Of a stretch of DNA of 64,000 nucleotides, positions 8,995 through 34,277 are shown in pieces. The position numbers and the translations under genes were made by a program. The stretch spans positions 1 to 64,000 of the forward strand of contig CALVUI010000002.1 of the NCBI GenBank assembly GCA_944363565.1. The letters are read 5' to 3'. Every line of letters begins with the position of its first letter. Position 1 is the first letter of the stretch. Origin of the DNA: an uncultured Bacilli bacterium (GTDB taxonomy: Bacteria; Bacillota_I; Bacilli_A; RFN20; CAG-826). Under the pieces are notes generated by a model. The model saw only the letters and a list, made by a program, of their open reading frames with translations. It was not told where the DNA came from and did not search any database.

Positions 8995-9237
8995 CTAAAG
9001 GGGTCCGATGCCCCTTAGGAGCTCCTCGAGGCTGACATCGAGGGCCTCGGAGAGTCTGACCAGGGTCTTGAGCGAGGGATTCCTCTTTCCCTTTTCGACC
9101 TCGGAAACAAAAGAAGGGGCCAAGCCCGCGGCCAAGGCCAAATCGAGTTGGCTAAGGCCTTTGAGGCTCCGAAGATAGGCCACCCGCTTCCCCAGTTGAT
9201 AATAGATGGAAAGATCGTCGAAATTCAGCCCCGGCAT
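8995..9237 (-). CDS. XRE-family DNA-binding protein
   Basis: Small 80-residue protein made almost wholly of one Cro/C1-type helix-turn-helix domain. The segment from about residue 16 to 72 carries the family pattern: LRSLKGLSQLDLALAAGLAPSFVSEVEKGKRNPS and LVRLSEALDVSLEELL. No sensor or catalytic domain is attached, so it may act as a stand-alone repressor. The start lies inside the end of whiA (13-base overlap), so it is translated from the same mRNA as whiA. There is no strong Shine-Dalgarno sequence. It sits just upstream of the gap promoter, whose palindrome could be a target, but LacI-type symmetry argues against this. Confidence 0.85.
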   Translation of the reverse strand: MPGLNFDDLSIYYQLGKRVAYLRSLKGLSQLDLALAAGLAPSFVSEVEKGKRNPSLKTLVRLSEALDVSLEELLRGIGPL

Positions 9238-10178
9238 GTCTTCTTGTAGATCTCCTCGAGTTTCCGGAAAAGATGGTTGACGTTGCTTTTGGTGACTTCG
9301 GAAGCCAGTTCGTCGGATAGGAGTTCCGCCAGCTCCGACAAGGAGGCGTCCTCATGTTCGAGGCGGAGCTTGCAAAGGGCCTCGAGCTTGGGGGAAGCCA
9401 GACGGGTCAAACCCCCGTGTTCTTTAAGATAAAGTATCTGTTCCTTCTGCTTCTCCGAGGCTTTCAAGGTCTTCCCCATGTTGGCCCCGTCCAGATTGTT
9501 CCAACGGTTCGAGACATTGTGCATGTCTCTCTCCATCCGGGCGTTTTCGAATTCAAGGGTGGCTTCGGATGCCCCCATGCAGGCCATAAAGTCGGCGATA
9601 TCCTGGCTCTTCTTTAGATAGATGACGGATTGTTGCCTTCTTTCCGTCAGTTTGAAGGAAAAAGGCCGCAAAAGGTTCTTGTTCAATAGTTTTTGCAAAT
9701 TCCGCGCAAAAGCCCCATCGACGAGGGCGATTTCCAAATGGTAATGGGTCGAAGTGGGCGAAGTGACATAGCCGCTTGAGAGGAAACACCCGGTCGCGTA
9801 GGAGACCGATTCTTCCTTGCTGGAGAAGGCATAGGGCGGAATGGTTTCGTCTAAAGGCGAGACCATGAGGTCATGCATGAAGGGCTCGAGGCCGATCGAG
9901 AGATTGACGTGGTAACGGACCCGATGGGCGAACCCCGATTCCCGGGTATAGGAAAAATAGGGCTCTGCCGGATAGAGGTCCTTGATGGCCTTGAAGAGGG
10001 CGGTCGCCACCTTGCTCGATTCGCTGGAAAGAGTCAGGCGTGGTTCCCCGGAAACAAAACGGAGACTGCCACCGGCCTTGACGTAGCCCGAAAGCAAGGC
10101 CCTTAGGGCGGCCGGCGAGCGGTTCAAGGAAGCCAGTTCTTCCTTGAGGGCGAAGGAAAAAGTCGGGGCGGAATTCAT
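9225..10178 (-). CDS. whiA: DNA-binding protein WhiA
   Basis: WhiA is a conserved Gram-positive protein with an N-terminal LAGLIDADG homing-endonuclease-like domain lacking nuclease activity and a C-terminal helix-turn-helix; it affects cell division and chromosome segregation in Bacillus and sporulation in actinomycetes. This copy has the typical opening SFALKEELASL, the two-lobed endonuclease-like core to about residue 200, the conserved NRWNNLDGANMGKT segment and the C-terminal HTH (LRLEHEDASLSELAELLSDE, then SNVNHLFRKLEEI). The start at 10178 forms an ATGA overlap with the rapZ stop, giving 317 residues, the usual family length. The longer in-frame start at 10217 would lie inside rapZ. 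Neighbours are as in other Bacillota, except that yvcK (gluconeogenesis factor) is missing between rapZ and whiA. Confidence 0.95.
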   Translation of the reverse strand: MNSAPTFSFALKEELASLNRSPAALRALLSGYVKAGGSLRFVSGEPRLTLSSESSKVATALFKAIKDLYPAEPYFSYTRESGFAHRVRYHVNLSIGLEPFMHDLMVSPLDETIPPYAFSSKEESVSYATGCFLSSGYVTSPTSTHYHLEIALVDGAFARNLQKLLNKNLLRPFSFKLTERRQQSVIYLKKSQDIADFMACMGASEATLEFENARMERDMHNVSNRWNNLDGANMGKTLKASEKQKEQILYLKEHGGLTRLASPKLEALCKLRLEHEDASLSELAELLSDELASEVTKSNVNHLFRKLEEIYKKTCRG

Positions 10179-11035
10179 TTGAGGTAACGGGGCAATTCCC
10201 GGTGGTGGAGGGAGCAACGGTAGGTGGCTTCGTAACGTTCGTAGATCTTCCTGGCGATATAGACCGAACGGTGCTGGCCCCCGGAGCAGCCGACGGCGAC
10301 GCTTAGGTAGATGCGGCCGTCTTTTTCCGAAAGGGGCAGGAAGACGTCGAGATAATCAAAGATGGCTTTCAGGAACTTCTCGGTCTTGGGATCCTTTTCG
10401 ATGAAGGCCTTGACCTCCTCGTCGAGGCCGGTCAAGGGAGCCAGTTCCTTGACCCAATAGGGATTGTCGAGGATCCTAGCGTCGATGACGGTATCGGCAT
10501 CGAGGGGCAGGCCGTATTTGAAACCAAATGAAGAAATGAAGATGTTGAGGTTGCTGCGCCCATCTTTCCTAAGGACCTCGAAGATCATCGACCTCAGTTC
10601 CTTCTCCCCTAGGGAGGAGGTATCGATGTAGACGTCCAAGTCGTCGCGGACCCTGGCCAAGGCCTGGCGGTCGTTTTCGAGGGCCTCCTCGAGGCTATAG
10701 CCGCTGGTCATGAGGGGATGGATGTGGCGCGTCAACTTGTAACGGGACAAAAGGACCGCTTCCTGGCAATCGAGGCCGATGGAGATGAGGGAAAAGGCCG
10801 GGTCGCGGCGGATGAGGCGCGTCACTTCCCCGACGTCTTTGAGGGGCAAGATGAGGGCCACCCTTTGGTAGCGTTCCGCTTCGTTTTTGAAAAGGGCCAA
10901 AAGGCCCGGGACCATCTTCAAAGGGAGGTCGTCGACCACATAGTAGCCGGAGGCCTCGAAGGCAAAGGAAGCCGTGGTTTTCCCAGCCCCGGCCAGACCG
11001 CTTAATATGACGATGTTGATCGGCGTCTTTTCCAC
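10175..11035 (-). CDS. rapZ: RapZ/YvcJ family nucleotide-binding protein
   Basis: P-loop NTP-binding protein; in E. coli RapZ is an RNase adapter controlling GlmS, and in B. subtilis YvcJ binds nucleotides and affects competence. The N-terminal P-loop is SGLAGAGKT at about residues 12-20. The C-terminal domain has the conserved DARILDNPYWVKELAPLTG segment and the GCSGGQHRSVYIA loop. The chosen start is GTG at 11035, where the family N-terminus would begin. A TTG at 11053 extends it by six residues; neither has a clear Shine-Dalgarno sequence. TACAAT lies six bases before the GTG, so a leaderless internal start is conceivable. It lies between trxB and whiA, overlapping whiA by four bases. Confidence 0.93.
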   Translation of the reverse strand: MEKTPINIVILSGLAGAGKTTASFAFEASGYYVVDDLPLKMVPGLLALFKNEAERYQRVALILPLKDVGEVTRLIRRDPAFSLISIGLDCQEAVLLSRYKLTRHIHPLMTSGYSLEEALENDRQALARVRDDLDVYIDTSSLGEKELRSMIFEVLRKDGRSNLNIFISSFGFKYGLPLDADTVIDARILDNPYWVKELAPLTGLDEEVKAFIEKDPKTEKFLKAIFDYLDVFLPLSEKDGRIYLSVAVGCSGGQHRSVYIARKIYERYEATYRCSLHHRELPRYLK

Positions 11036-11070
11036 GCCTAGATTGTAAACCAAAAAGATAGGTCGGTGGC

Positions 11071-11994
11071 CTATTTTCCGGCGGCCGCCCTGCGGATGAT
11101 GGCGCTGCCGGCCTTGGCCCCGTCGCTAGCGGCGGTCACGACCTGCTTGAGCAGGCTCTGCTTGGCATCGCCGGCCACATATAGGCCCTTGAGGGAAGTC
11201 TCCCCGGTTTCGGGATCCCCGATCAGGAAGTTGCCCTTGTATTCGACGTTGAGGGAAGAAAGGAGAGCCAGGGGGCCGTTTTCCTTGGAATAGACGAAGT
11301 AGCCGTCGGCCTTGATCAACGTGATTTTCCCATCGATTTCGTATTCTAAACCCTCGATTTGCGTCCTTTTTTCATCAGCGACGAACCTCAGTGGCTTGAT
11401 AGACGTAATGATTTCGACCTTCGGATTCTCCTTGAGCGCCTTGATCGAATCTTCGCTTCCCTTGAGGTCAGATTCTTCGAACAAGAGGGTGACCTTCGAG
11501 CATTGGAGGGCGAGGTGGAGGGCCTCAGAAAGCGGCTTCTCCCCGTTGCCCAAGACCACGGTTTCCTTATTGACGTAGAAGGCGGCGTCGCAGGTGGCGC
11601 AGTGGCTGATGCCGCGTCCCATGAATTCCTTTTCCCCTTCGAGGCCCTTGCTGAGGCTGCTAAGCCCGGTGGCGATGATGACGTTCTTGGTCAGATAGCT
11701 CCCGTCTTCGACGCTGACCTTGAAGAGGTCCCCCTCCTTATCGACCGCGGTCGCCCGTTTGTAGACGATCTCGGCCCCGAGGGAAGTGGCCTCCCCTAGT
11801 AAAGCCAAAGCCAAATCGGTGCCCGAGGTATTGGGGACGCCGGGATAATTGTCGATTCGGTTGATGTCGACCAGCTTGCCCCCGGGAGTTGAGCCCTCGA
11901 GGACGATTCCCTTAAGGGGACTTCTGGCCAAATAGATGGCAGCGCTGAGCCCGGCCGGACCCCCGCCGATCACCACGTAATCATAGATTTCCAT
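11071..11994 (-). CDS. trxB: Thioredoxin reductase-like flavoprotein lacking the NADPH motifs
   Basis: 307-residue low-molecular-weight thioredoxin reductase. The FAD domain has GGGPAGLSAAIYLAR near residue 10 and the C-terminal GLYVAGDAKQSLLKQVVTAASDGA. The redox-active CATC is at Cys132/Cys135. However, the second nucleotide domain is altered: where NADPH-dependent enzymes have GGGxSA, this has GNGEKP (149-154), and the 2'-phosphate-binding HRR is replaced by FEE (172-174). Loss of both motifs is the hallmark of ferredoxin-dependent flavin thioredoxin reductases and related non-NADPH enzymes of anaerobes. A ferredoxin donor is therefore inferred; the window also encodes a ferredoxin-reducing PFOR. 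It overlaps the HAD gene upstream by 14 bases. Confidence 0.9.
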   Translation of the reverse strand: MEIYDYVVIGGGPAGLSAAIYLARSPLKGIVLEGSTPGGKLVDINRIDNYPGVPNTSGTDLALALLGEATSLGAEIVYKRATAVDKEGDLFKVSVEDGSYLTKNVIIATGLSSLSKGLEGEKEFMGRGISHCATCDAAFYVNKETVVLGNGEKPLSEALHLALQCSKVTLLFEESDLKGSEDSIKALKENPKVEIITSIKPLRFVADEKRTQIEGLEYEIDGKITLIKADGYFVYSKENGPLALLSSLNVEYKGNFLIGDPETGETSLKGLYVAGDAKQSLLKQVVTAASDGAKAGSAIIRRAAAGK

Positions 11995-12631
11995 AAAGTT
12001 TCTCCTTCAGTTCATCGTAGGATGTGAATTCAATGGTCGGCCGATATCCTTCAAGCAATTTCCGAGGAGCGAATTTGGCGAGGGCCATATCAAGCCCCAA
12101 GGCCTTGGCGGCCTGCTCGTCATAGGCCGAATCCCCGACGTAGAGGACCTTATCCAGCGGTCCCTTGTAACCCATGAGGTCCAAGGCCTTGAGCAAGGGT
12201 TCGGGATCGGGCTTGTTGTGTTTGACCTCGTCTCCGGCCACGGTGGCATCGAAGATCCCCTCTAAATGAACGAGGTTTAGGGAGAGATCGGTCGGTCCCC
12301 GAAACTTGCTGGTCGCGAGTCCCAGGAGGATTCCCTTTTCCTTCAAAGAGGTGAGGAATTGATAGGCCCCGGGATAAAGAACCGCCGTATTGAGATAGTA
12401 TTTGCGGCTTTTTTCGACAAATAGGTCCCTCATCTTCTCTTTGGGCCGATCCGGGAATTCCTTCTCCATCGTCTCCAAAAGGGGAGGCCCGGAAAAGAGG
12501 AACATGTCGCGTAGATGGGGACGGTAATCGGGACGGAACTCGCGGTAGAGCTCGTACATCGTGAGGGCGATCATGAAATCGCTGTCGAGCAAGGTCCCGT
12601 CGAAGTCGAAGAGGAGGACCTGATATTTCAT
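11981..12631 (-). CDS. HAD-superfamily phosphatase (PpaX/phosphoglycolate phosphatase type)
   Basis: 216-residue HAD hydrolase. Motif I is LLFDFDGTLLDSD with nucleophile Asp9 and general acid Asp11; motif II is ATSK near residue 115; the motif III lysine lies in KHNKPDPEP; motif IV is YVGDSAYDEQAAKAL. The helical cap between motifs I and II is of the C1 type found in phosphoglycolate and pyrophosphate phosphatases. In B. subtilis the pyrophosphatase PpaX is encoded between lgt and trxB-region genes, the same position as here, so PpaX-like activity is a reasonable inference, though the substrate cannot be read from sequence. Two bases separate it from lgt and it overlaps trxB by 14 bases. Confidence 0.9.
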   Translation of the reverse strand: MKYQVLLFDFDGTLLDSDFMIALTMYELYREFRPDYRPHLRDMFLFSGPPLLETMEKEFPDRPKEKMRDLFVEKSRKYYLNTAVLYPGAYQFLTSLKEKGILLGLATSKFRGPTDLSLNLVHLEGIFDATVAGDEVKHNKPDPEPLLKALDLMGYKGPLDKVLYVGDSAYDEQAAKALGLDMALAKFAPRKLLEGYRPTIEFTSYDELKEKLYGNL

Positions 12632-12633
12632 GC

Positions 12634-14097
12634 CTATTCTTTGTCTACGGTCTTAGGTGTTTCTTTTTCGGGCTCGGCCTTCTTGGTTTCCTCAATGAAG
12701 TTCCCGTTTTCGTCGACCGGGGTCCTTTGCCAACCGTTGTCGGCCTTCCCGAATTCGATGTAGTTGATGGGGGCTCCGGCCACCTGGACGGCCTTGCGGT
12801 AACGGAGGTACTTCCAGACTTCGAAGGCGGCGATCAAGGCCAAACCGATGAAGATGTAGGCCAAACTCCCCCAGACCGAGAAGTTGTTGTCGTTGCCCAT
12901 GTTGTAGTTTTCGTCACGAAGGGGTTCCATGATGAAACGGACGATCCCGTAGTAGATGAAGTAAAAGCCGGCGGCATCGCCCTTGGCCAAGTAGTTCTTG
13001 AGGGGCGTGCAAATCCCATAACGGATGATGAAATAACCGGCGATGTTGAAGACCGACTCGATGAGGAAGAGGGGGACGTAGATCATGGTGGTCCCGGTCA
13101 GGGAATTGGAGACGCTGCTATATTGCATGTTCCTGGCGATCCAAGTCGGGAGCCACTGCCAGCCGGAACTAAGTTCCACCGCCACCCCGTGGACCTCGGC
13201 GTTGAAGAAGTTGCCCCAACGGCCGATCCCTTGGGCCAACAGAATCGTCGGGACGATGACCCCCATGGCCCAGGGGATGTCGATGAACTTGTATTTCTTG
13301 TTGAGGGCGATGAAGAGGACCCCGCCGACGATCCCCAGGGCCGCGCCCCCGATGATGGTGAGACCCCCGTCCCAGATGGCGAAGACGCTCCAGAAGTCCT
13401 TGTCGAAGCCGTCGCGGGTCCAGTTCCCGACCACGTACCAAAGCCTCGCCCCGATGATTCCGCAGAGGAAGGCTACGACGACCAAAACCTCCAAGATCCC
13501 ATGCCGTCCGTACTTCTTGTAGAACTCATGGTCGGAGACGAAGTAGCAGACTGCCACCCCGGTCAAGATGAAGACGGCGTACCACATGATGTGGACCCCA
13601 CCGCTATGGCCGCTTAAAGGCGTCGAGAAATAGAAACCGGCATCGCCTCCGAAGACGACCCCGTTGATGAGCGGGTAAGCGAGATAGGGGGCCACCCCTT
13701 CCCCGAACAAAAGGAAGAAGGCGAGGGCCAAGGGGATGGCAGCAAAGGTCAAGATCCTAGAGATCTTCTTTTGTTTCTTGTCGAAGGCCGGCTTGTAGTA
13801 ATAGAAGGCGAAGGCCGTCCAGAGGACCAAAAAGCTGACCGCGAACAAGCCAGCACCCAAGATCGACATGGTGGCGTGGCCATTGTCCATCTTCCAAACA
13901 TCGCCCCAGGTATTGACGGCGGCGGCTAGAAATCCGGCCCCGACCCCGAAGCCGGCGATGGTTCCGATGATCTTATAGAATTCCGGGGCCTTGATGGTCG
14001 GCGTCCCGTTCCTGATGGCCTGGCGGCTGAAGACGATTTCGGCGGAGAGTGATCCGATGGCCATAAGGATCCCAATGACAAGAAACGCGATTGACAT
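12634..14097 (-). CDS. lgt: Prolipoprotein diacylglyceryl transferase with N-terminal membrane extension
   Basis: Lgt transfers diacylglycerol from phosphatidylglycerol to the lipobox cysteine of prolipoproteins in the cytoplasmic membrane, the first step in maturing the many lipoproteins in this window. The core (about residues 136-450) has the catalytic-region arginine in IIGARLWYV (216-222), WDGGLTIIGG, the family signature around GIGRWGNFFNAEVHG (290-304), and the late FIMEPLRDE. The protein has 487 residues against the usual 260-300: about 130 extra residues with three or four hydrophobic helices at the N-terminus and a charged 50-residue tail. Signature residues differ slightly from the typical GR-x-GNF-x-N-x-E pattern. 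No clear Shine-Dalgarno sequence precedes the ATG. It follows uvrA; hprK, often found between them, is absent. Confidence 0.93.
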   Translation of the reverse strand: MSIAFLVIGILMAIGSLSAEIVFSRQAIRNGTPTIKAPEFYKIIGTIAGFGVGAGFLAAAVNTWGDVWKMDNGHATMSILGAGLFAVSFLVLWTAFAFYYYKPAFDKKQKKISRILTFAAIPLALAFFLLFGEGVAPYLAYPLINGVVFGGDAGFYFSTPLSGHSGGVHIMWYAVFILTGVAVCYFVSDHEFYKKYGRHGILEVLVVVAFLCGIIGARLWYVVGNWTRDGFDKDFWSVFAIWDGGLTIIGGAALGIVGGVLFIALNKKYKFIDIPWAMGVIVPTILLAQGIGRWGNFFNAEVHGVAVELSSGWQWLPTWIARNMQYSSVSNSLTGTTMIYVPLFLIESVFNIAGYFIIRYGICTPLKNYLAKGDAAGFYFIYYGIVRFIMEPLRDENYNMGNDNNFSVWGSLAYIFIGLALIAAFEVWKYLRYRKAVQVAGAPINYIEFGKADNGWQRTPVDENGNFIEETKKAEPEKETPKTVDKE

Positions 14098-14125: not shown

Positions 14126-16966
14126 TCATTTCATTTCCAAAAGCGGCCGAAGGTACTTCCCGGTGTAGGATCCCTCGGTCTTGGCCACCTCTTCCGGGGT
14201 GCCGGCGGCCACGATTTTCCCGCCCTTGTCCCCGCCGTCGGGGCCGATGTCGATGACGTAGTCGGCGACCTTGATGACGTCGAGGTTGTGTTCGATGACG
14301 ATGACCGTCTCCCCGCCTTCGACCAGGCTTTGGAGGATCCTGATCAGACGCTTGACGTCGGCCGTATGGAGGCCGGTCGTCGGTTCGTCGAGGATGTAGA
14401 CCGTCTTCCCGGTCGGACGGCGCTGGAGCTCATAGGCCAGCTTGACCCGTTGGGCTTCCCCGCCCGAGAGGGTGGTCGCGCTTTGGCCGAGCTTGATGTA
14501 GCCTAGGCCCACGTCGTAAAGGGTCTTGATCCGCCGGTAGATCGAAGGCCGGGCCTCGAAGAAGGAGAGGGCCTCCTCGACCCGCATCTCCAAGACGTCG
14601 TGGATGTTCTTGCCCTTGTAGGTGCACTCCAAGGTCTCGGCGTTGTAACGGAGGCCGTCGCACTCGTCGCACTTGACGTAGATGTCGGGCAGGAAGTTCA
14701 TCGGAACCCGGACCACGCCCCCGCCCTGGCACTTCTCGCAACGCCCACCAGGAACGTTGAAGGAGAAGCGGCCCTTGTCGTAGCCGCGCTCCCGGGCCAC
14801 CGGGGTTTCGGCGTAAAGCTCGCGTATTTCGTCGAATAATTTGATGTAAGTGGCGGGGTTGCTTCTCGGCGTCCGCCCGATCGGTTCCTGCGAAACATTG
14901 ACGGCCTTATCGACGTAGTTGAGGCCCTGGATCGAGGAATATTGGCCCGGGACGATGTCGGGATCCTTCCCGAGCTTCTTGGCCAGGGCCTTGTAGAGGG
15001 TTTCGTTGATGAGACTGCTCTTCCCCGAGCCCGAAACCCCGGTCACGGCGATGAAGGTCCCGAGGGGGAAGGAAACGTCGATCCCCTTGAGGTTATGGCA
15101 TTTGCAGCCCTTCAAAACCAACTTATGGCCGTTGCCCTTCCTTCGCTTAGTGGGCACTTCGATCTTCTCGCGGCCCGAAAGATAGGCTCCGGTGACGGAA
15201 CGCGGGCAGGACATGACGTCGTCCAAGGAGCCGGCCACGACGATTTCGCCGCCCCGGTCCCCGGCCGCAGGGCCGATGTCGACGATGTAGTCGGCGTTCC
15301 TGATCGTCTCCTCGTCGTGTTCGACGACGATCAAGGTATTGCCGAGGTCGCGCATTTCCTTGAGGGTCTCGATCAGCTTCTGGTTGTCCTTTTGATGGAG
15401 GCCGATCGAGGGTTCGTCCAAGACATAGAGGACGCCCGAGAGGCGGCTCCCGATCTGGGTGGCCAAACGGATCCGTTGGGCCTCCCCGCCCGAGAGGGTC
15501 ATGGCCATGCGGCTGAGGGTCAGGTATTCAAGGCCGACGTCGGCGAGGAAGAGAGCCCGGTTTTCGATTTCCTTTAAGACCAAGGAAACGATTTCTAATT
15601 GCATCGGGGTCAAAGAGGCCCGGGTCGACTTGATGTAATCCAGAAGTTCGGAGATCGGAAGACAGGTCACCTCGTAGATGTTGAGGCCGTTGACCTTGAC
15701 CGAAAGGGCGGCTTCGTTGAGGCGCGCCCCATGGCAGGCCGTGCATTCGGAATCGCGCATGAAGGACTCGTAGTACTGGCGCATCCATTCGGAATTGGTA
15801 TCGCGGTAGAGCCTCTCCAAACGGGTCTTTATCCCTTCGAATCTCCCCCTTTTGCGGAGGGAATTGCCGGACTGGGTCTTGATGACGTAATCGAATTCGG
15901 TGTCGCTCCCAAGCATGATGAGCTTCTTTTGGGAAGCGGTGAGATCCTTCCAAGGCACGTCGTATGGGATGCCGTAATGGTCCATCATGTGGCAGAACTC
16001 CTGCCACTCGATGGCGGCGGTCCCGATGATGCCCTTGTAGTAACGGATGGCCCCTTCGTTGATGGCGAGGCTCGGATCGGGGACCAGTAAATCTTCGGCG
16101 ACTTCCCGGGTGATCCCTAGGCCCTTGCAACGTTCGCAGTAGCCTAGAGGGGCGTTGAAGGAAAAGAGCCGCGGTTCCAAATTAGGGACCGAAAAACCGC
16201 ATTCCGGGCAGGTGTGGTGGCGGCTATAGAGCTTCTCGGTGCCATCATGGACGACGATCATGTAGCCCCGACCGTAATCAAGGGCGGTCTCGATCGACTC
16301 GTTGAGGCGGCTCCGCGATTCTTCCTTAAGGGAAAGGCGGTCCACCACCAGTTCGACGTCGTGGCGTTTGTTCTTCTCCAGTTCCGGGGTCTCCCCTAGC
16401 AAATAGAACTCCCCGTCGATCCGCACCCTCGAGAAGCCCTTGAGGGAGAGTTTGGAAAGGACCTCGGCCTGGGTTCCCTTTTCGTGACGGACGATTGGGG
16501 CCAAGATCTGGACCTTGGTCCCCTCCCCGAGGTCCATGATGTCATTGGCCATCGCCACCGGGCTATAGGAAAGGATCGGGAGATGGTGCTTGGGGCAATA
16601 AGGGACCCCGACCCTAGCGAAAAGCAAACGCAGGTAGTCGTAGATCTCGGTCACGGTCCCGACCGTCGAACGGGGGTTGTGGGAGGTTGTCTTCTGATCG
16701 ATGGAGATGGCCGGGGAAAGGCCCTCGATCGAATCGACGTCGGGCTTGTCGACCCCGCCGAGGAACTGGCGGGCATAGGGCGACAAAGATTCGACGTAGC
16801 GCCTCTGTCCTTCGGCGTAGATGGTGTCGAAGGCCAGGGTGCTCTTCCCGCAGCCCGAAACCCCGGAAAAGACCGTCAGGGTGTTCTTGGGAATGGTGAG
16901 GGAGAGGTTCTTGAGGTTATTTTCCCGCGCCCCCTCCACCACGATGTAATTGCGATAGTCCGTCAT
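14126..16966 (-). CDS. uvrA: UvrABC system protein A
   Basis: Damage-recognition ATPase of nucleotide excision repair. The 946-residue protein has the two tandem ABC modules. Module one: Walker A GVSGCGKST near residue 35, zinc-finger remnants CPKHH and CPECGFSVPN...CERCKGLG, and signature LSGGEAQRIRLATQ. Module two: Walker A GVSGSGKSS, the C-terminal zinc finger CEKCQGGG...CDECDGLRYN, and signature LSGGEAQRVKLAYE. The start at 16966 fits the family opening (MTDYRNYIVVEGARENNLKN). Only ten bases separate it from a TATAAT hexamer and no Shine-Dalgarno sequence is present, so the mRNA is probably almost leaderless. GTG/ATG starts farther up (17002, 16993) would cross the promoter. First gene of the uvrA-lgt-HAD-trxB-rapZ-whiA run, divergent from tRNA-Pro. 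Confidence 0.96.
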   Translation of the reverse strand: MTDYRNYIVVEGARENNLKNLSLTIPKNTLTVFSGVSGCGKSTLAFDTIYAEGQRRYVESLSPYARQFLGGVDKPDVDSIEGLSPAISIDQKTTSHNPRSTVGTVTEIYDYLRLLFARVGVPYCPKHHLPILSYSPVAMANDIMDLGEGTKVQILAPIVRHEKGTQAEVLSKLSLKGFSRVRIDGEFYLLGETPELEKNKRHDVELVVDRLSLKEESRSRLNESIETALDYGRGYMIVVHDGTEKLYSRHHTCPECGFSVPNLEPRLFSFNAPLGYCERCKGLGITREVAEDLLVPDPSLAINEGAIRYYKGIIGTAAIEWQEFCHMMDHYGIPYDVPWKDLTASQKKLIMLGSDTEFDYVIKTQSGNSLRKRGRFEGIKTRLERLYRDTNSEWMRQYYESFMRDSECTACHGARLNEAALSVKVNGLNIYEVTCLPISELLDYIKSTRASLTPMQLEIVSLVLKEIENRALFLADVGLEYLTLSRMAMTLSGGEAQRIRLATQIGSRLSGVLYVLDEPSIGLHQKDNQKLIETLKEMRDLGNTLIVVEHDEETIRNADYIVDIGPAAGDRGGEIVVAGSLDDVMSCPRSVTGAYLSGREKIEVPTKRRKGNGHKLVLKGCKCHNLKGIDVSFPLGTFIAVTGVSGSGKSSLINETLYKALAKKLGKDPDIVPGQYSSIQGLNYVDKAVNVSQEPIGRTPRSNPATYIKLFDEIRELYAETPVARERGYDKGRFSFNVPGGRCEKCQGGGVVRVPMNFLPDIYVKCDECDGLRYNAETLECTYKGKNIHDVLEMRVEEALSFFEARPSIYRRIKTLYDVGLGYIKLGQSATTLSGGEAQRVKLAYELQRRPTGKTVYILDEPTTGLHTADVKRLIRILQSLVEGGETVIVIEHNLDVIKVADYVIDIGPDGGDKGGKIVAAGTPEEVAKTEGSYTGKYLRPLLEMK

Positions 16967-16971
16967 AAGCC

Positions 16972-16986
16972 CCGCTATTATAGCGG
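16972..16986 (-). promoter_or_regulatory. uvrA -10 element inside a 15-nt palindrome
   Basis: The minus-strand hexamer TATAAT (16977-16982) forms the centre of a perfect palindrome CCGCTATTATAGCGG (16972-16986). No good -35 is seen at 16-18 nt. The hexamer is 10 nt from the uvrA ATG. It does not match the Bacillus LexA box. The palindrome may be an operator, or only an accident of the -10. Confidence 0.5.
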
Positions 16987-17027
16987 AACCCATCCCCTCC
17001 ACTCACCATAACGCTTAATTTTCCTAT

Positions 17028-30731: not shown

Positions 30732-33700
30732 TTAGAGTCCGAACTTCTTGATGGCTTCGAAGCGCTCCTCGGCGTGCTTTTGGCACTCGTCGAGGAGTTC
30801 GGCCGCGTGCTCGGGGTTGACGACCGGCAGCTGGCTATAACGGGTTTCGTGCATGACGAAGTCCTTGAGCTTGCTGAAGTCGGGCTTGTCGAAGTCGAGT
30901 TCGACTTTGCCCTTCCTCGGGTCGTAACGGAAGATCTGGAAGTAACCGCAGTTGACGGCATCCCTTTCTTCCTGGATCGAGTTGACGAGCCCGCCCTTGA
31001 CCCCGTGGTTGGCGCAGGGGCAGTAGCAGAAGATGATGGACGGTCCATCGTAGCTCTCGGCTTCCCTGAGGGCCTGGATGGCCTTCATCGGGTTGGCCCC
31101 GAGGCTGATGCAGGCGACATAGACGTGGCCATAGGCCATGGCCATGAGCGGGAAGGGCTTCTTGGCTTCCTTCTTGCCGGAGGCCGTGAACTTGTTGATG
31201 GAGCCGGTCTGACTGGCTTTCGAGGCCTGGCCGCCGGTATTGGAATAGAGCTCGGTATCGAGGACCAGGACGTTGACGTCGGCTTTGTTGGCCAAGACGT
31301 GGTCAAGGCCGCCGTAGCCGATGTCGTAGCTCCAGCCGTCGCCGCCGACGATCCAGACCGACTTATCGAGGAAGTCGCGGTAGTAGGGCTTGAGGGCCGC
31401 GCTCTTCTCGGTCCCGTGCTTTTCGAGGGCTTCGATGAGGTCGGGGATGATCTTCCGGGCCTTTTCCTTGTCCTTGATGGAGGCGAGGTAGGAATCGATG
31501 AGGGCGTTGAGGGCCTCGTCCTTTTCTTCCTTGACCTCGAGGAGGAGGCGGCTGATGGTGGCCAGCTTGTAGTCGGTGGCCATCCGCATCCCGAAGCCGT
31601 ATTCGGCGTTGTCCTCGAAGAGGGAGTTGGCCCAGGCCGGACCTTCGCCCTTTTCGTTGGTGACGAAGGGGGTCAAGGGGGTCGAACCGCAGTAGATCGA
31701 GGAGCAGCCGGTGGCGTTGGCGACCAGCATGTCCTTCCCGAAGAGCTGGCTCACGAGACGGTAGTAGGGGGTTTCGCCGCAGCCGGCGCAGGCCCCGGAC
31801 ACTTCCATGTAGGGCATCAGGAACCCGACGCCCTTGACGGTGTTGAGCGGGAACTTGTCGGACTTGTAGGGAACGTGCTTGTAGAGGTAGTCGGCCCCTT
31901 CTTCCTCGGCGAACTGGCTCTTGGCCTCAACGAGTTTGAGGGCGAACTTGTCAGTGCCGGTGCGCTGGGCGGCCTTGTTGGCAAGGCACTCCTTGACGCA
32001 GAGACCGCAGCCGACGCAGTTCTTGGTCGAAATCTGGATCCTGAAGGCCAGATCCTTGACGGTGGGCCCGAGGGCCGGCTTGGTCCCGTTCTTGACGATT
32101 TCCGGCGCCTTCTCCAACTCTTCCTTGTTCAGAAGGAAGGGACGGATGGTGGCGTGGGGGCAGACGAAGGCGCAGGTGTTGCACTGGATGCAGTTGTCCT
32201 TGTTCCATAAGGGCACCCGGTCGGCGATGGCCCGCTTCTCCTTGAAGGTGACGTTGGGTTCCATGGTCCCGTCGAGGAGTTCGAACTTCAGGAATTCGGA
32301 AGTCGGGATTTCGTCCCCGTCGAGGGCCCCGATGACGTCCATGTATTCGTCGAGGTAGGCGTCCCCGGTCATGGCCGTTTCCTTCTTGATCGGAAGCTTG
32401 GCCCATTCCGGATCGATCTTGAATTCACGGATCCCTTCGGCCCCGGCGTCGATGGCCTTGTAGTTCAGTTCGACGACGTCCATTCCCTTCTTGGCGTAGG
32501 ACTTGAGGGCGAATTTCTTCATCCATTCCTGGGCCTCGGCATAGGGCATGATCGACTCGTTGAGCTTGAAGAAGGAAGCCTGGAGGGTGGTGTTGGTGTG
32601 ACGGCCCATCCCGATTTCGGCGGCGATCTTGTTGGCGTCGATGACGTACATCTTGGCGTGCTTCTTGGCTAACAGGGCCTTCATGCGGTTAGGCATCGAT
32701 TTGGCCAAGGTGGCGTCATCCATGTCGGTGTTGAGCAAGAAAGTCCCACCTTCCTTGAGGTTGGCGATGATGTCGAAACGGAAGATATAGGTATCGAGGG
32801 AGCAGGAGATGAAGTCGGCATCCTTGACGTAGTATTCGCTGTGGATGGGCTCCTTCCCGAAGCGGAGGTGGCTCCGGGTGACACCGCCGGCCTTCCTGGA
32901 GTCGTATTGGAAGTAGGCCTGGGCATATTGGTGGGTGGCGTCGCCGATGATCTTGATCGAGGACTTGTTGGCGCTCACGGTGCCATCGCTCCCGAGCCCG
33001 TAGAAGAGGCAGCTGGTGTAGTTATGGGCGATCCGGTAGTCTTCGTCGACCGGGATGCTCAAATGGGTGACGTCATCGACGATCCCGACCGTGAAGCCGT
33101 TCCAGGTCTTCTCGGCATCGAGGAAGTCATAGACGCTCTTGACGTGCTTGGGCTGGGTGTCCTTGCTGCTGAGGCCATAACGTCCGCCGAGGATGAGGTC
33201 GACCTTGCGGCCTTCCTGGGCCAAAGCGGCCACGACGTCGAGATAAAGCGGTTCGCCGATCGAGCCGGGTTCCTTGGTCCGATCCAAAACGGCGATCTTC
33301 TTGACGGAAGAGGGGATTACGGAAACGAGGTGCTTGGCGGAGAAAGGACGGTAGAGGTGGACCTTGACGAGGCCGACCTTCTCCCCTTTCTTCAAGAGGT
33401 CTTCGACCACTTCGTGGGCGGTTTCGGTGACCGAGCCCATGGCGATGATGACCTTTTCGGCATCGGGGGCCCCTTCATAGACGAAGGGCGCATAGTGACG
33501 CCCGGTCAGACGGGAAGCCTCGGCGAAGTACTTTTCGGCGATTTCCACGATCTTGGTAATGTGGGCGTTCTGGGCTTCACGGCCTTGGAAGTAGATGTCG
33601 TCGTTTTCGGCCCCGCCCCTGGTCACCGCGTGGGTGTGGGGGTTGAGGGCCCGGCGCCGGAATTCCTCGACCTTGTCCATCGGAAGGAGCTTCTTCCATT

Positions 33701-34277
33701 CGTTCTCGTCGACGAACTCGACGTTTTGGACCTCGTGGCTGGTCCTGAAGCCATCGAAGAAATGGAGGACCGGGCACATCGAATCGATGGCCAAGAGGTG
33801 GGCCACCGGGGTGAGGTCGGCGATTTCCTGGACGCTATGGGAGCAAAGCATGGTGACGCCGGTCTGACGGCAGGCGTAGATGTCGGCCTGGTCCCCGAAG
33901 ATCGAAAGCGATCTGGCGGCCAAGCTTCTGGCCGAAACGTGGAGGACGGCCGGGAGCAACTCCCCGACCCACTTGTAGAGGTTCGGGAGCATGAGCAAGA
34001 GGCCTTGCGAAGCGGTGTAGGTGGTGGCCAAAGCCCCGCCTTGGAGGGCGCCGTGGACGGTGCCGGAAGCGCCGCCTTCGGATTCCATTTCCACGACCTT
34101 GACCGGGGAACCGAAGAAGTTCTTGTCGCCCCTGGAGGACATGACGTCGACCAATTCGGCCATCGGGGAGGAGGGGGTAATGGGATAAATAGCGGCCACT
34201 TCGGTGAAGTAGTAGCTTTCCATGGCCGCCGCGGTATTGCCGTCGACGGAATGGAACGTCTTCTTGATGTCTGACAT
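30732..34277 (-). CDS. nifJ: Pyruvate:ferredoxin (flavodoxin) oxidoreductase
   Basis: Single-chain homodimeric PFOR converting pyruvate and CoA to acetyl-CoA, CO2 and reduced ferredoxin in the cytoplasm. All domains are present in 1181 residues: N-terminal pyrimidine-binding domain (YPITPSSPMAE), the gamma-type domain (EPGSIGEPLYLDV), two 4Fe-4S motifs, CIQCNTCAFVCP near 695 and CVGCGLCVKEC near 757, and the thiamine-diphosphate domain with SGACAGCGETPY and GDGWSYDIGYGGLDH near 975, plus the fourth-domain NTGGQASKAS. AAGGAG lies before the ATG. It is monocistronic, oxygen-sensitive by nature of the family, and the likely source of reduced ferredoxin for other enzymes such as the TrxB variant. 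Confidence 0.98.
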   Translation of the reverse strand: MSDIKKTFHSVDGNTAAAMESYYFTEVAAIYPITPSSPMAELVDVMSSRGDKNFFGSPVKVVEMESEGGASGTVHGALQGGALATTYTASQGLLLMLPNLYKWVGELLPAVLHVSARSLAARSLSIFGDQADIYACRQTGVTMLCSHSVQEIADLTPVAHLLAIDSMCPVLHFFDGFRTSHEVQNVEFVDENEWKKLLPMDKVEEFRRRALNPHTHAVTRGGAENDDIYFQGREAQNAHITKIVEIAEKYFAEASRLTGRHYAPFVYEGAPDAEKVIIAMGSVTETAHEVVEDLLKKGEKVGLVKVHLYRPFSAKHLVSVIPSSVKKIAVLDRTKEPGSIGEPLYLDVVAALAQEGRKVDLILGGRYGLSSKDTQPKHVKSVYDFLDAEKTWNGFTVGIVDDVTHLSIPVDEDYRIAHNYTSCLFYGLGSDGTVSANKSSIKIIGDATHQYAQAYFQYDSRKAGGVTRSHLRFGKEPIHSEYYVKDADFISCSLDTYIFRFDIIANLKEGGTFLLNTDMDDATLAKSMPNRMKALLAKKHAKMYVIDANKIAAEIGMGRHTNTTLQASFFKLNESIMPYAEAQEWMKKFALKSYAKKGMDVVELNYKAIDAGAEGIREFKIDPEWAKLPIKKETAMTGDAYLDEYMDVIGALDGDEIPTSEFLKFELLDGTMEPNVTFKEKRAIADRVPLWNKDNCIQCNTCAFVCPHATIRPFLLNKEELEKAPEIVKNGTKPALGPTVKDLAFRIQISTKNCVGCGLCVKECLANKAAQRTGTDKFALKLVEAKSQFAEEEGADYLYKHVPYKSDKFPLNTVKGVGFLMPYMEVSGACAGCGETPYYRLVSQLFGKDMLVANATGCSSIYCGSTPLTPFVTNEKGEGPAWANSLFEDNAEYGFGMRMATDYKLATISRLLLEVKEEKDEALNALIDSYLASIKDKEKARKIIPDLIEALEKHGTEKSAALKPYYRDFLDKSVWIVGGDGWSYDIGYGGLDHVLANKADVNVLVLDTELYSNTGGQASKASQTGSINKFTASGKKEAKKPFPLMAMAYGHVYVACISLGANPMKAIQALREAESYDGPSIIFCYCPCANHGVKGGLVNSIQEERDAVNCGYFQIFRYDPRKGKVELDFDKPDFSKLKDFVMHETRYSQLPVVNPEHAAELLDECQKHAEERFEAIKKFGL

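Follow-up and report, generated by a model that had tools for sequence, protein, structure and literature searches.

A thioredoxin reductase of anaerobic Bacilli without the NADPH-binding residues, probably driven by ferredoxin

A gut-type anaerobe of the Bacilli and nearly all of its genus-mates possess a thioredoxin reductase (TrxB) that lacks the residues gripping NADPH and is probably run on ferredoxin. Assignment to Bacilli was deduced from gene content and from relatives of the same class, among them genomes with the in-frame TGA of Mycoplasma; an RF39/RFN20-like position, suggested by PFOR and [FeFe]-hydrogenase (PMC7301438), is highly tentative. The enzyme, here termed type A, is encoded at 11071..11994 of the window, that is, the whole stretch of 64,000 nucleotides that was analysed, and comprises 307 aa with the thioredoxin reductase fold but no NADPH site. 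It is probable that type A is the main thioredoxin reductase of the cell, in a remodelled form whose FAD receives electrons from ferredoxin and not from NADPH. A survey of thioredoxin systems gives Bacilli a single TrxB, of NTR type, and within Firmicutes assigns ferredoxin-type (non-NTR) enzymes to Clostridia and Negativicutes alone (PMC10880999). In the present genomes, no TrxB bearing the NADPH motifs was found across whole genera of Bacilli. Loss that recurs in one gene slot, together with the close canonical orthologues, offers replicate natural experiments on change of electron donor in a flavoenzyme. Moreover, the use of ferredoxin would couple thiol reduction directly to the metabolism of pyruvate or hydrogen in reduced genomes that lack G6PD.

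Motifs, fold and gene slot of type A

The type A reading frame begins with ATG and lies on the minus strand, as do all features of the window located below; the sequence-only reading had named no strand. The FAD pyrophosphate motif GGGPAG (residues 10-15; 11950..11967) and the redox-active CATC (residues 132-135; 11590..11601) are intact, and the further FAD motifs ATG (108-110) and GD (275-276) are both present. The CATC site is flanked by GRG and FY, the thioredoxin-contact residues as named in PMC5627308. Regarding the second domain, both nucleotide motifs are degenerate. GNGEKP (residues 149-154; 11533..11550) replaces the pyrophosphate loop GGGxSA, so that the GxGxxA loop of NTRs is absent, and FEESDLK (residues 172-178; 11461..11481) stands in place of the 2'-phosphate motif HRRxxxR of NTRs, with Glu173, Glu174 and Lys178 at the first, second and third Arg positions, respectively. 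The residues thus agree throughout with the sequence-only reading, which had claimed intact CATC and FAD motifs and changes from GGGxSA to GNGEKP and from HRR to FEE.

The extent of the loss was measured on columns conserved in at least 85% of 33 TrxBs having both NADPH motifs. Outside the NADPH site this protein keeps 32 of 36 such columns, versus 2 of 8 inside (Fisher p 0.0007), while for 26 members of the clade the figures are 34 of 36 and 4 of 8 (p 0.0065). Conservation of the three Arg columns among these members is only 0-4%. Values of dN/dS were 0.06-0.18 for close pairs and 0.29 for a more distant pair including this gene, indicating that the gene is maintained under purifying selection and has not decayed.

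Pfam and NCBIfam searches assign the protein to the thioredoxin reductase family, although with 238 bits it stays below the curated cut-off of 343 for TRX_reduct (TIGR01292). An AlphaFold2 model, the check proposed earlier for the second nucleotide domain, reached a mean pLDDT of 90.6 with a 21-row alignment (a 3-row alignment gave a poor model, pLDDT 60) and was matched by VIA-align to S. aureus TrxB over 304 residues, with Z 34.6 and rmsd 4.0. The model shows a complete predicted TrxB fold in which the second domain still folds; being one chain with no ligands, it informs on the folding of that domain and not on what binds there. The VIA-align listing is headed by NTRs, although the family is not decided by fold comparison. 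The C-terminus reads ...SAIIRRAAAGK, without Trp.

The neighbouring genes, identified from sequence, are conserved. Upstream lie a HAD phosphatase of PpaX/PgmB type (11981..12631), the end of which overlaps the trxB start by 14 bp, followed by lgt (12634..14097) and uvrA (14126..17002). Downstream, rapZ (10175..11053) starts 17 bp past the trxB end and is followed by whiA (9225..10217). Within the order, the slot uvrA-lgt-HAD-trxB-(rapZ)-whiA is common to type A, to canonical TrxBs and to several further TrxBs without the motifs. Type A occupies the ancestral trxB slot, as canonical TrxB does in sister lineages. The Lgt encoded here is, at 487 aa, clearly above the usual length; it has additional membrane sequence at its N-terminus, and its tail is charged.

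Distribution of motif-less TrxBs and repeated loss of the NADPH site

In the genus survey, only motif-less TrxBs were found in 35 of 37 genomes, several of which are incomplete. The two exceptions (G014 and G033) have a motif-bearing TrxB at another location, and neither a slot copy nor type A was found there. These off-slot enzymes (L065 and L070, respectively) carry both NADPH motifs and group with the TrxB of family f5, which suggests lateral acquisition. The type A clade is present in genera g1, g23 and g30 with the motifs lost throughout; other genera of the family retain GGGNxAL...HRRNEFRG. The replacement residues vary by lineage, with loops such as GKGFQA, GHEEKA, GEGSRA and GYKDQA, and PEE, DDD and SKG at the HRR sites. 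A single-protein search of the genome contigs yielded only three distant loci.

Two trees were compared. In the full-column tree, one group holds all type A proteins, the ferredoxin-dependent flavin thioredoxin reductases (FFTR) and some other motif-less forms. Since the domain carrying the trait could itself produce such a grouping, a tree of 98 rows restricted to 179 columns of the FAD domain was preferred. There, type A of the genus forms one clade (96/80); once the rows of g23 and g30 are added, type A occupies one side of a branch whose bootstrap is weak (63/99). Other motif-less forms are located elsewhere: those of G040, G052 and G057 beside canonical genes of family f5, that of G046 beside G039, and those of G258, G303 and G318 interspersed with canonical genes from the family to which the window belongs. 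A single origin of all 44 motif-less rows is rejected on this tree, at a cost of 236 log-likelihood units (p-AU 1e-45), implying that the NADPH site was lost repeatedly in the order. Parsimony requires at least 12 state changes with the nrdD-linked and Thermotoga-type forms left out; the counts carry no direction, which was read as loss because motif-bearing forms are the general state.

Two further unusual proteins were observed. Genus g20 (L212, L217) has another motif-less TrxB (GEGGELMREEY, NGVKID) on a long branch outside the placed groups. An IMG/VR contig classed as viral (L279, 1501-2346) encodes a TrxB with the degenerate NADPH motifs GDNEEAL and SHHKEPRA.

Relation to FFTR and other reductases

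As a single sequence, type A scores 184 bits with the NTR 5mh4, 144 with the Gloeobacter FFTR (GvFFTR, 5j60) and 92 with the clostridial FFTR 6gna; with the clade profile, the scores become 292, 225 and 194. The Gloeobacter enzyme was compared by score alone, the tree being built without it. Canonical NTRs (Lactococcus 5mh4, Bacillus cereus 7aaw) are the top sequence and fold matches, and the canonical TrxBs of sister lineages share the gene slot, but GxGxxA and HRRxxxR are lost in type A, which also lies below the TRX_reduct cut-off. When all columns are used, the type A clade is placed beside clostridial FFTR (SH-aLRT 87-97), whereas the FAD columns do not resolve this placement: joining type A with clostridial FFTR is not rejected (p-AU 0.54), and joining it with the core canonical TrxBs of the family is marginally disfavoured (p-AU 0.085). 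The grouping within canonical TrxB that would have refuted the sequence-only reading did not appear, type A falling outside the canonical set of its family. It should be noted that type A drifts fast, so that features in common with FFTR may be long-branch effects.

FFTR (Clostridium 6gna-6gnd, Gloeobacter 5j60/6xtf) resembles type A in its TrxB fold, FAD, CxxC and absent NADPH motifs, and the clostridial hosts share with the type A host an anaerobic, ferredoxin-based metabolism. However, clostridial FFTR chains have 288-294 aa, compared with 307 aa and a full-length second domain in type A, which is unshortened after the second strand. Cyanobacterial FFTR ends in a C-terminal tail with a stacking Trp (PMC12796991), which type A lacks, and type A, unlike FFTR, occupies the slot that is ancestral for trxB in Bacilli. 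Altered nucleotide motifs on a TrxB-like protein, as in type A, also occur in Desulfovibrio DvTRi, Thermoplasma TaTrxR and Methanocaldococcus DFTR. Neither NADPH nor NADH reacts with DvTRi (PMC5627308), whose carriers, unlike the type A host, are reported only from Deltaproteobacteria and Clostridia. The statement of the sequence-only reading that such motif losses define FFTR does not hold, because the donor of TRs without HRR can also be NADH (Thermotoga TmTR, Desulfovibrio DvTR3) or F420, and in some cases is unknown (PMC5627308). Its broader proposal of a non-NADPH enzyme agrees well with the clade-wide loss, the purifying selection and the lack of canonical TrxB in most genomes of the genus, while membership of FFTR is left undecided by the p-AU above. 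From the unshortened domain, the missing Trp tail and the tree placement, type A was therefore filed as working like a non-NADPH TR and not as a proven member of FFTR.

Among the alternatives to ferredoxin, a reductase dependent on NADH, or weakly on NADPH, survives best, although it is unlikely. The loop keeps Gly-x-Gly, and the acidic Glu173 and Glu174 at the Arg sites that bind the 2'-phosphate recall NAD-preferring Rossmann folds; moreover, the characterised HRR-less TmTR and DvTR3 can use NADH (PMC5627308). However, the sister protein in G007 has P-D at the Glu173/Glu174 positions, and the second Gly is also lost in many members of the clade (GHEEKA, GYKDQA, GNNDIA), indicating that no NADH signature is conserved in the clade. 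Furthermore, position 154 is Pro in this protein. The Thermotoga/Thermosipho NADH TRs (TmTR, 7jyp) lack HRR like type A, but 7jyp-like forms retain GGGxSA, and the NADH-type pattern (GGGxSA kept, QNL for HRR) is not found in type A.

The electron donor and the second TrxB

PFOR, a likely source of reduced ferredoxin, is encoded at 30732..34277 (TIGR02176, 1513 bits). The suggestion drawn earlier from a PFOR in the window thus stands as regards its presence but is weak as an argument, since PFOR is equally common and equally near in genomes with canonical TrxB. Of 61 relatives, 58 have it, among them genomes with canonical TrxB. Where PFOR and the slot trxB share a contig (26 genomes), the two are 5-19 kb apart in 25, and these, too, include genomes with canonical TrxB. 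Co-location with PFOR, being near-universal and shared by both kinds of TrxB, was rejected as a link to type A; it is old gene order and no evidence for a switch.

The host genome also encodes a small single-cluster ferredoxin of ~63 residues (frame at L269 1417-1668, read from the sequence), HydABC and further [FeFe]-hydrogenase-like proteins, one thioredoxin of the normal WCGPC type, and a YumC-like FNR with intact HRR, which suggests ferredoxin/NADPH exchange in this genome. G6PD was found in 0 of 61 relatives searched, and the catalytic chain of Fe-S FTR, FeThRed_B (PF02943), in 0 of 61 genomes. A PF00258 search recognised no stand-alone flavodoxin in the host genome, and such a donor was rejected, the matches being a flavodiiron-type protein and a single hit that is short and weak. 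PFOR, the small ferredoxin, the hydrogenases and the lack of G6PD and Fe-S FTR point to ferredoxin as the most available low-potential donor, and we infer that it is the best-supported donor to type A. A further clue is that in an FFTR the potential of the FAD is known to be matched to ferredoxin (PMC12796991). PFOR and ferredoxin, being as common with canonical TrxB, do not discriminate between donors, and the canonical TrxB in two genomes of the genus implies that some members have access to NADPH.

With ferredoxin as donor, the process would probably proceed as follows. Reduced ferredoxin, supplied by PFOR or in equilibrium with [FeFe]-hydrogenases, would deliver single electrons to the FAD of type A. 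The second domain would swing, as in other TrxBs, after which FADH2 would reduce Cys132-Cys135, and this dithiol would in turn reduce the WCGPC thioredoxin. The second domain would now only carry the disulfide, which would explain the drift of its nucleotide loop. Pyruvate oxidation would thereby drive thiol reduction while bypassing NADPH, which these cells cannot form through G6PD.

Another redox-protein donor, such as a hydrogenase-like Fe-S protein, a flavoprotein of the YumC-like FNR kind or an undetected flavodoxin, is given a small chance. Several [FeFe]-hydrogenase-like proteins occur in the host genome, and in genus-mate G027 an FFTR adjoins a hydrogenase-like protein; none of these genes, however, is a conserved neighbour of type A, and the small ferredoxin is at hand. 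In G027 the slot copy was not found; at L093 3987-6411, a ferredoxin-domain/[FeFe]-hydrogenase-like frame, partly masked as N, is followed after 34 bp by a clostridial-type FFTR gene, as if FFTR could take over the role of the slot TrxB.

A second motif-less TrxB (type B) is encoded elsewhere in the host genome (C2:141471-142385; L036 4472-5386, plus strand), directly after nrdD. The latter gene specifies an anaerobic ribonucleotide reductase whose C-terminus forms a NrdH/glutaredoxin-like CPNC domain, and the nrdD-trxB pair is conserved family-wide and in some parts of the order. Type B has no HRR; its own motif, GD[AG]N[ST]A...LFDxxF, is fixed throughout the family, in which canonical TrxB is present alongside it. 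Type B seems to be a reductase dedicated to the NrdD-fused redoxin. With two TrxBs per genome and the type B motif conserved and not eroding, type A might serve another disulfide substrate while type B reduces thioredoxin. This is improbable, as CATC, GRG and the TrxB slot are all conserved in type A, type B stands beside canonical TrxB in sister genera and so is not the usual general reductase, and some genomes with type A gave no match to type B. Least probable is an ordinary NADPH-dependent TrxB with a merely odd-looking site: the nearest solved relatives are indeed NTRs, but 96-100% of the clade lack Arg at each of the three positions and DvTRi, a characterised TR with such losses, is unreactive with NAD(P)H (PMC5627308).

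Returning to a ferredoxin-driven type A, a wider and more tentative proposal is that the resident NADPH TrxB of this anaerobic Bacilli order was converted in place several times to a ferredoxin-driven enzyme, with no known FFTR inherited. If so, all thioredoxin-type reduction, with type B and deoxynucleotide synthesis included, would be independent of NADPH.

A further cluster was observed in the host genome at C5:18500-24253 (L276 1532-7253), where two [FeFe]-hydrogenase-like proteins enclose a SpoIIE-like phosphatase and are followed by a DUF362-like Fer4 protein. It looks like a sensory hydrogenase system.
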